A DNA stretch of 64,000 nucleotides from Zobellia uliginosa. GTDB lineage: Bacteria > Bacteroidota > Bacteroidia > Flavobacteriales > Flavobacteriaceae. Positions 26,693-54,618 of this stretch are shown here, in pieces; the stretch's first letter is position 1, and each line of letters opens with the position of its first letter. The stretch covers positions 806,001 to 870,000 of the forward strand of contig NZ_FTOB01000003.1 in the NCBI RefSeq assembly GCF_900156625.1. The letters run 5' to 3'. The notes beneath the pieces were generated by a model. That model had not been told where the DNA came from, made no database searches, and was given only the letters and a program-made list of their open reading frames with translations. Both the position numbers and the translations under genes were made by a program.

Positions 26693-26728
26693 AAAAAAGC
26701 CCTGACGTTAATACGCCAGGGCTTTTTT
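26693..26728 (+). terminator. Strong bidirectional terminator between rpoD and the small-peptide genes
   Basis: The stem GCCCTGaCG/CGcCAGGGC has A residues on the left and T residues on the right, so it can terminate transcription arriving from both sides. It serves rpoD on the plus strand and the peptide genes on the minus strand. Confidence 0.92.
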
Positions 26729-26753: not shown

Positions 26754-26855
26754 CTAAGAATAATTTAGTTTGTTGATTTGTTCGCTATTTAAGATTTCAT
26801 TTAAGTTTTCAATGAAACTCATGTAAGCTGCGTTGTCTGGGTTTTGATTTGCCAT
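26754..26855 (-). CDS. Small peptide gene, second of a tandem pair (33 aa)
   Basis: This short gene encodes a 33-residue acidic peptide beginning MANQNPDNAAYMSFIENL. Its C-terminal half, SFIENLNEILNSEQINKLNY, aligns without gaps to the peptide encoded 38 bases upstream (SFLQDLNEILSLNELVELDY): the LNEIL core is identical and hydrophobic positions are kept in helical spacing. The pair shares a promoter at 27045-27080 and ends just before the bidirectional terminator at 26693-26728. I recognise no family. No modification enzyme, protease transporter or toxin partner is adjacent. The similarity between neighbouring frames makes translation likely; the function is open. Confidence 0.68.
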   Translation of the reverse strand: MANQNPDNAAYMSFIENLNEILNSEQINKLNYS

Positions 26856-26893
26856 AGTTGTAGGTTTTAAAGGTTGCAATGATTGGGGGTAGA

Positions 26894-26992
26894 TTACATA
26901 TAATCTAATTCTACCAATTCGTTTAAGCTCAAAATTTCGTTAAGGTCTTGAAGGAATGATAGGTATTCTTCTCCGTAGGTATCGTAAAGCAT
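26894..26992 (-). CDS. Small peptide gene, first of a tandem pair (32 aa)
   Basis: This short gene encodes a 32-residue, strongly acidic peptide (eight Asp/Glu, no Lys or Arg) beginning MLYDTYGEEYLSFLQDL and ending LDYM. Residues 10-30 should form an amphipathic helix with Leu/Ile/Phe on one face. It is homologous to the peptide encoded directly downstream. The ATG lies about 45 bases downstream of a predicted start site from a well-matched promoter. The A/T-rich leader has no strong Shine-Dalgarno, which is normal in Bacteroidota. The family is unknown; a signalling, membrane-active or regulatory peptide are all possible. Confidence 0.68.
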   Translation of the reverse strand: MLYDTYGEEYLSFLQDLNEILSLNELVELDYM

Positions 26993-27044
26993 TTTTCTAT
27001 AGGTTAAGTTACTATTTTGATTTGGTGTCTTAATTACTACGATG

Positions 27045-27080
27045 TAAACATATTCATAAACTCATGTGATTACAACAAAA
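27045..27080 (-). promoter_or_regulatory. Promoter of the small-peptide pair
   Basis: On the minus strand, TTTTGTTG (27080-27073) is followed after 20 bases by TATGTTTA (27052-27045). This matches seven of eight positions of the Bacteroidota -7 box TAnnTTTG with a TTG at the expected -33 distance. Transcription would start near 27038. Confidence 0.6.
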
Positions 27081-27465
27081 TGTGGTGTAAGGAAAGAAAA
27101 ATGTTGTAAAAGTTGTTAATCATGTAAAGATCGGCCTTTTTTGATACCAAAAATACCGCGATATGTACCGATAAAACATCGCACTTTATCTATTACTGCT
27201 TAAAAATCAATGCCTTGCAAATGAAGAACCCCTTTGTTTACGGCTACTCCAAGCATTTCTGGGCTATTATGTGCTATTGTTGTGATTTGTTCCGCCTATT
27301 TCAAAAACCATTTTGGGCAAAGCTATTCAAATACCAATGTCTATAGGCGAGAGTAATGTAATGAACGGGGTTTCTATTGGGTAGTTAACTTAGGAAGTTG
27401 TACAATTTGTTGCTAATGAGGAAATCTATAAGGTATGCAATGGGATAAGTGTAAATCATAATCCT
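27081..27465. other. Intergenic region without a recognised gene
   Basis: These 385 bases separate the exopolysaccharide operon from the peptide genes. There is a 41-codon plus-strand frame at 27221-27346 rich in Trp/Cys/Phe that has no support. No terminator hairpin for the operon is obvious here. Confidence 0.4.
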
Positions 27466-48142: not shown

Positions 48143-48625
48143 ATGAAGTTTATTTTAAAAATATTGCCTTGGAAAAAGACAATAAACGTGTCGATCGCGG
48201 TGATAGCACTACTCATTATTTTTAGTTTTTACGGGCTTTATACCAATTCCTTTTATCTGTTAAAACCTAACAACTACATTTTCCCCCTATTGAGCCTGAC
48301 CCATTTGACATTTCTATATGTGCTTTGGTTCAAAATCAAGGAAGATGAGTTGACGGACCCACAAATGCGCAATATTGAATACATTCTTTACGTAGTTTTT
48401 GCCGTATACGTCTTTAAGACTTTTGAATCCTTATTTATCTTAATAAGCTATTCCGAATTTCAGAACCATATTATCCCTGCCAGTTTCTTTCCTTTGGGTA
48501 TCCTTATTTTCTTGCTACACGTGGCTCTTTTGGGGCTTACCTTGCTAGCCATAAAATATAGAAAAGACCTGGTCGGCGATTATAAATTTGATGATATGAA
48601 CCAACATATCGATTCTTGGGAATGA
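48143..48625 (+). CDS. Four-helix integral membrane protein, unknown
   Basis: This is a 160-residue membrane protein with a basic N-terminus (MKFILKILPWKKTIN) and hydrophobic segments at about 15-34, 45-63, 78-102 and 111-140. The tail after 140 is acidic (KFDDMNQHIDSWE) and probably cytoplasmic. I recognise no family. It is followed after 18 bases by a terminator shared with the convergent lipoprotein gene. The preceding 196 bases (47947-48142) hold no other gene. Confidence 0.78.
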   Translation: MKFILKILPWKKTINVSIAVIALLIIFSFYGLYTNSFYLLKPNNYIFPLLSLTHLTFLYVLWFKIKEDELTDPQMRNIEYILYVVFAVYVFKTFESLFILISYSEFQNHIIPASFFPLGILIFLLHVALLGLTLLAIKYRKDLVGDYKFDDMNQHIDSWE

Positions 48626-54565: not shown

Positions 54566-54590
54566 TTGGTTAACCAGTTTGGTTTACCAA
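54566..54590 (-). promoter_or_regulatory. Tandem operator pair upstream of the second PL6 gene
   Basis: Two palindromes sit side by side: TTGGTTAACCAG (54566-54577) and TTGGTTTACCAA (54579-54590), centres 13 bases apart. The second overlaps the -7 box of the promoter at 54588-54618. TTGGTnnACCAA is the kind of site bound by GntR/FadR-type regulators of uronate genes (UxuR/ExuR). The same pair with the same spacing occurs at 58277-58301. Confidence 0.85.
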
Positions 54591-54618
54591 AAATACATAT
54601 TATTACAGAACAGGCAAA
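54588..54618 (-). promoter_or_regulatory. Promoter of the second PL6 gene
   Basis: On the minus strand, TTTG (54618-54615) is followed after exactly 19 bases by TATTTTTG (54595-54588), a perfect match to TTTG-N19-TAnnTTTG. Transcription would start near 54581, inside the operator pair, giving a leader of about 25 bases. Confidence 0.8.

Follow-up and report, generated by a model that had tools for sequence, protein, structure and literature searches.

A conserved pair of micropeptides in marine Flavobacteriaceae as a candidate output of a LytTR two-component system

Introduction

LytTR-controlled promoters carry two direct repeats of ~9 bp that lie 12 bp apart (i.e. with a period of 21-22 bp). 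In the regulons of AgrA, VirR, PlnC and YehT a regulator comprising receiver and LytTR domains is encoded beside a kinase, and 9-bp direct repeats ~21 bp apart are placed upstream of the target promoters. The system that we describe here resembles these in both respects. It differs from them in the sequence of the repeat (TTCACAACA), in having a HisKA_2 kinase with TPR domains, and in its predicted outputs, which are mostly small RNAs and micropeptides; genes for peptide export were not seen.

The control of multicopy small RNAs by a two-component system is a known kind of circuit, exemplified by CiaR and its csRNAs, LisRK-LhrC, GacA-RsmY/Z and LuxO-Qrr. In these, as is predicted here, a single regulator is linked to several paralogous small RNAs that contain repeated boxes. 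By contrast, both the regulator family and the RNA sequences are different in our case, and micropeptide mRNAs also bear the RNA boxes and the operator. A further comparison is with Sda, MgrB and SafA, tiny proteins linked to two-component signalling that adjust the activity of another protein. Unlike these, the peptides described below (P1 and P2) come as a tandem pair of helices that are both acidic and soluble, and we know of no sequence relation between the two groups.

LhrC is also the subject of a published abstract (PMC4132741). A search for four peptide strings gave no match in the literature text accessible to the search, and the titles and opening lines of abstracts on LytTR regulators with small RNAs in the Bacteroidetes, or in the genera concerned, describe no such system. 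Among the matches listed for the operator half-sites searched as text, none concerns this bacterial group. The peptides and the small RNAs appear to be new, as does their combination under this regulator.

Two conserved micropeptides

The locus lies within a 64,000-nucleotide stretch of the genome of Zobellia uliginosa (the window). A reading of the window from its sequence alone had proposed a tandem pair of paralogous micropeptide genes, to be checked by looking for homologous frames in related genomes and by Ka/Ks; both analyses favour the proposal. Within the genus P1 is 100% identical in nine of nine genomes, and P2 is 82-100% identical in the same number. No further strong copy of either was found in the source genome. 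Among 347 genomes of the family, P1 was present in 72 (at E <= 4.4e-9), and P1 and P2 occur together in 69, counting one (G332) where P2 is weak alone (E 0.019) and was included on position. From the genome labels, sorted by hand, this corresponds to 42 genera with P1 and 40 with both. In a profile search of 344 genomes across the order, strong P1 (E <= 4.4e-17) was confined to the family, with a best outside match of E 0.0115. At a weak P1 match in G034 no family-like frame was found. In a named collection 242 stretches encode a relative of P1. Eighty loci were kept from these, among them loci of Arenibacter, Maribacter, Zobellia, Pricia, Muricauda and Cellulophaga; in all 80 the stop of P1 falls at codon 33, and 79 contain P2, the remaining locus being cut by the end of its contig.

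The P1 frame is intact in 74 of 74 loci (i.e. the genomes with strong P1 in the genus and family searches, excluding three loci with P1 alone and two with a distant P1-like gene). Substitutions in both genes fall mostly at third codon positions. The pooled pN/pS ratio is 0.098 for P1 (74 loci) and 0.28 for P2 (the 69 of the 74 loci at which its length is equal), both well below 1, and within the genus dN/dS was estimated as 0.008 and 0.061 respectively. Judged by this pattern P1 and P2 are under purifying selection. Two features would fit chance reading frames in a conserved non-coding region, namely the very small size of the frames and the conservation of the promoter around them. Against this, the frames remain intact, they vary at third positions, their pN/pS is low and they are paralogous; we regard such an origin as vanishingly improbable, the substitution pattern ruling it out. 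A reading of the peptides as toxins was dismissed on composition alone.

Comparison of the P1 and P2 profiles using hhalign gave E 3.8e-9 over 24 columns. The best ungapped BLOSUM62 score between the peptides is 60, which was equalled by none of 20,000 shuffles of P2; these shuffles, like those used below for box and terminator counts, leader match and hydrophobic moment, preserved composition alone. From these comparisons P1 and P2 are real, homologous micropeptides. Those of the window have SF[IL]x[DN]LNEIL in common. The gap-free alignment proposed earlier holds, and the serine of that core is not conserved in the family, where the core of both peptides is Y-x-x-F-[IL]-x-x-L-N-x-I-L. No described family had been recognized from the sequence, in agreement with a search of Pfam and NCBIfam models that returned zero families for either peptide up to E 10. 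Comparison with PDB chains also gave no match (best E 0.48).

AlphaFold2 predicts a single helix for each peptide, spanning residues 2-31 of P1 (pLDDT 81) and 6-24 of P2 (pLDDT 75). Both peptides are acidic, as had been proposed. Their description as amphipathic helices applies to a 14-residue core, the hydrophobic moment of which was reached by 2.6% (P1) and 5.0% (P2) of shuffles. Longer stretches are not amphipathic; shuffles reached the observed value in 22.6% and 97.2% of cases in one test, and in 62.7% and 85.0% in another.

P1 occurs alone in three genomes (G058, G075 and G252), with 68-75% identity to the P1 of the window. G026 and G221 have a more distant P1-like gene, for which the identity is 42%. 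All of these lie in gene contexts different from that of the P1-P2 pair. The simplest history is that of a lone P1 that was later duplicated.

Organization of the P1-P2 transcription unit

The features of the locus are collected in Table 1. P1 and P2 are separated by 38 nt, and P2 is followed by a strong terminator and then by a convergent gene for a sigma-70 factor.

Table 1. Positions of the elements of the P1-P2 locus, in window coordinates unless stated otherwise.
Feature	Position	Strand	Evidence
P1 micropeptide, 32 aa, MLYDTYGEEYLSFLQDLNEILSLNELVELDYM	26992-26894	-	conserved ORF
P2 micropeptide, 33 aa, MANQNPDNAAYMSFIENLNEILNSEQINKLNYS	26855-26754	-	conserved ORF, P1 paralogue
Operator, direct repeat TTTACAACA-N12-TACACCACA, 21-bp period	27081..27110	-	exact match to TTNACMACA-N12-TWCACMACA
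P1-P2 operator, genome coordinates	G000:C12:833081-833110		exact pattern match
Promoter	27045..27080	-	sequence; conserved in alignment of promoter stretches
Promoter TTG	27075-27073	-	readable in sequence
-7 box TATGTTTA	27052-27045	-	28 nt downstream of operator
Leader, predicted transcribed	26993..27044	-	boxes common to sRNA-A
Leader box CCAAATC	27025-27019	-	common to sRNA-A
Leader box AACTTAACC	27010-27002	-	common to sRNA-A
P1-P2 spacer with boxes CCCCCAATC and AACCTACA	26856..26893	-	box enrichment
Terminator, inverted repeat, 16-pair stem	26693..26728	.	between P2 and convergent sigma-factor gene

The -33/-7 promoter proposed from the sequence can be read directly, and by its consensus we take it to be of the Bacteroidota type. 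It is absent from the list returned by a generic sigma-70 scan, as expected of a promoter of that type. Under the terminator rule applied, P2 is followed within 70 nt by a terminator in 66 of 74 loci, against 12.1 expected from base shuffles, whereas no locus of the 74 has one between P1 and P2. The proposed downstream terminator and the complete unit encoding small peptides are thereby both borne out. A role as leader peptide of an attenuator was rejected on the position of the terminator after P2, which is then followed by a convergent gene. No tRNA or other known RNA was found in the 64-kb window, with no Rfam family reaching its gathering score. In 51 of 74 loci the pair is preceded by a YaiO gene on its own strand, as it is in 35 of the 39 having flanks of 3 kb.

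In 69 of 74 loci the sigma-factor gene converges on the unit from no more than 400 nt away. A possible target of P1 and P2 is RNA polymerase or a sigma factor (either this primary factor, or an ECF factor under a related operator), the binding of which would retune transcription. A partner as conserved as P1 would be needed, and the sigma protein is 89-100% identical across the loci compared. However, convergent neighbours need not be functionally related, and the location of lone P1-like genes in other contexts argues against either the sigma factor or YaiO as the partner. We consider this target unlikely.

The operator and its spacing from the promoter

The strongest conserved element upstream of P1 is TTNACAACA-N12-TWCACCACA, followed by AWTTWRTTG and further on by TATGTTTAC. 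The alignment comprised 113 distinct stretches from the 137 (of 159) that contain CACCACA or CACAACA as an anchor. As the stretches were chosen by these bases, their conservation follows from the selection itself. Mismatches counted locus by locus are independent of that anchor, and the operator is present with two or fewer in 73 of 74 P1-P2 units (49 exact, 14 with one and 10 with two), the remaining unit having three. The five lone or distant P1-like genes are without it, having six or seven mismatches, and this counts against our preferred reading. The element has the layout of a LytTR site, i.e. two direct repeats of ~9 bp with a 21-bp period, upstream of a promoter.

The source genome contains eight exact operator sites and three with a single mismatch. 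On allowing two mismatches the total rises to 28, compared with 18 for the reversed control, so that the pattern is unspecific at this level. With at most one mismatch there are 9-15 sites per genome in 10 genomes that have P1 and P2 (reversed control 0-2), and 0-1 in eight genomes without the pair (control 0-2), one of which, G026, has the distant P1-like gene. The sequence TA..TT[TA] occurs exactly 28 nt past the operator in 46 of 112 distinct sites (from 119 counted in the 10 genomes), where other positions have a mean of 1.2. A spacing of 28 nt is also the commonest at sites other than those of P1-P2. With its end 28 nt ahead of the -7 box, the operator is positioned in a manner suited to activation. 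The promoter noted earlier is not simply the pair's own, since the operator is common to other small transcripts and to the LytTR system described below.

A LytTR two-component system associated with the operator

A search for LytTR genes covered seven genomes, three of them with P1 and P2; in each of these three, one LytTR gene closely precedes an operator. It encodes a regulator of 250 aa with Response_reg and LytTR domains (G000:C13:917958-918707 in the source genome), and is followed by the operator and then by a gene for a kinase of ~650-660 aa with TPR, HisKA_2 and HATPase domains. We take the flanking genes to be menA and menC. In 12 of 13 genomes the regulator gene is followed, at a distance of 54-494 nt, by an operator with at most one mismatch; in G323 none was found near the regulator at that level, which counts against our preferred reading. 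The kinase gene is intact in eight of nine genomes inspected. In the source genome (C13, L442:2804-4799, + strand) it is split into two frames, due either to an assembly error or to a real frameshift.

Scoring the best seven candidates per genome, the regulator is present at 83% identity or above in exactly the 69 genomes of the 347 that have both P1 and P2 (the match in G294 being partial, residues 60-250). The three genomes with P1 alone have it at 75-76% identity. Two observations run against a strict association. In ten genomes of the family the regulator is present at 57-74% identity and P1 was undetected. Of the two genomes with the distant P1-like gene, G026 gave no regulator match at E <= 1e-40, and G221 is not among the matches listed. 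Moreover, the peptides and the regulator largely mark one lineage, so that part of the agreement follows from shared ancestry alone. The link between the LytTR regulator and the operator sites suggested by co-location and co-occurrence is a correlation, from which we infer binding.

Predicted transcripts behind the operator

A number of genes lie behind operator sites. The most frequent encodes a third micropeptide, P3, of 33-35 aa with the C-terminal sequence KKLFML, found in 8 of 10 genomes and additionally in Zobellia; it matches nothing in Pfam or NCBIfam. In six genomes P3 is followed by a frame that we take to be a GNAT-like acetyltransferase. In the source genome P3 is located at L264:1306-1407 (- strand), on C16 near 226271. 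Others are a leucine-rich-repeat protein (7 of 10 genomes), the kinase gene (6 of 10), membrane peptides of 50-67 aa (6 of 10) and 58-59 aa (4 of 10), a protein of 123-126 aa (5 of 10), the Zobellia relative of which matches no Pfam family, PAS kinases (3 of 10) and a DUF6747 protein (2 of 10). A factor of the ECF sigma type has an operator in both the source genome and G001, and its membership of the regulon is less sure because that site has two mismatches.

The main family of predicted RNAs, which we term sRNA-A, is ~130-180 nt long with a terminator at its end, and contains the boxes TGTAATTAAG, CCCAAATC, AACTTAACC and ACCTACTT. Ninety-five distinct units with a -7 box were kept, of which 48 have a terminator, and 31 were classed as copies of sRNA-A; removal of near-identical copies left 16, from Zobellia and other genera, with the operator and terminators in common. 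No ORF is conserved among the copies, and alifold gave no pairs in a consensus structure. Three units lie ~300 bp apart in G001. Unannotated copies in the source genome are at C16:196756-197399 (L261, L262 and L279), C16:216677 (L263) and C16:564362 (L265). A second predicted RNA, sRNA-B, is shorter, being 85 and 94 nt at the two loci where an end was found. Its candidates have a near-identical TTTTTCATTTTCATATAGTGTTCTCGTAAA before the terminator across genera, at L268 and L284 in the source genome, L292 and L299 in G001, L347 in G190 and L383 in G306. A search of 13 operator loci against Rfam gave nothing at the gathering score, and 15 weaker matches look like chance.

The leader of the P1-P2 transcript resembles sRNA-A. 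Its best local match to that RNA was equalled by one of 300 shuffled leaders. A CCCAAAT-like box is present in 43 of 78 leaders (78 of 79 being counted), compared with 3.5 expected from base shuffles, and boxes of the CCCCCAATC or AACCTACA type occur in 60 of 74 P1-P2 spacers, with 22.5 expected. With the operator and promoter also spaced as they are in sRNA-A, the P1-P2 transcript could be mainly a regulatory RNA, the boxes of which either pair with targets or are bound by a common protein; the peptides would then be the second product of a dual-function RNA. This seems improbable to us. The pN/pS of P1 indicates constraint at the protein level beyond the need of an accessory peptide, and the boxes may serve translation initiation alone.

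Proposed function of P1 and P2

We think it probable from these comparisons that P1 and P2 are helical micropeptides that remain inside the cell as an output of the HisKA_2/LytTR system, and that their most likely role there is that of a connector or adaptor. A signal would act through the HisKA_2 kinase to phosphorylate the LytTR regulator, which would then bind the 9+12+9 direct repeat immediately ahead of the P1-P2 promoter and activate that promoter. The same regulator would activate the multicopy small RNAs, P3 and the small membrane proteins, as well as the stretch ahead of its own kinase gene. P1 and P2 would be translated from one short mRNA and retained in the cell, and the short acidic helices, either singly or as a P1-P2 pair, would dock on a well-conserved cytoplasmic protein. 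The peptides suit such a target because no export signal is in sight and they vary little.

The connector role is reached by exclusion. The sequence-only reading had offered three roles, namely a regulator of a larger protein, a secreted signal, or a precursor peptide, and the first is now the most plausible. LytTR regulators of Gram-positive bacteria read peptide signals, and P1 and P2 are encoded by tandem small genes within the predicted regulon, so they could conceivably be a secreted signal or modified precursor for quorum sensing, read by the LytTR regulator in the manner of Agr. We consider this very unlikely. No signal sequence is apparent by eye in either peptide; no gene for an exporter, a modification enzyme or other processing was seen among the neighbouring frames read, beside either the pair or the two-component genes; and P1 is nearly invariant over 40 genera, which is the opposite of a strain-specific pheromone. 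The secreted signal and the precursor are both disfavoured on these grounds.

More broadly, and tentatively, the LytTR system of marine Flavobacteriaceae might govern a post-transcriptional hub with largely small products. Its members would be the multicopy small RNAs that contain CCCAAATC and CCTACTT boxes, together with P1, P2, P3 and the membrane micropeptides, and some of the micropeptide mRNAs would carry the boxes of the small RNAs. P1 and P2 would in that case partner an RNA-binding protein, or a factor of the ribosome or RNA polymerase. Such a hub would be a counterpart of Gac/Rsm; we know of none in this lineage. If the small RNAs act as suspected, the system would be an RNA-and-micropeptide control circuit in bacteria that are important in the breakdown of algal polysaccharides. 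What were two anonymous frames, of 32-33 aa, have become a conserved protein family in ~40 genera of marine flavobacteria with a candidate regulator named, and the operator together with the 28-nt rule leads to further small genes and RNAs that are often missed by annotation.

Further sites

A membrane protein of 160 aa without a Pfam match is encoded in the window at 48143-48625 (+ strand). No operator is evident upstream of it; look-alikes in G036 (L378) and G306 (L382) have one with a single mismatch. Elsewhere in the window an operator-like sequence with two mismatches at 54583-54612 (+ strand; G000:C12:860583), near an alginate-lyase region, is probably a chance match. A further operator with one mismatch is found in the source genome at C16:353326-353355 (L266), between genes that we take to be ribonuclease R-like and rpiB-like, and this site is also present in G004.
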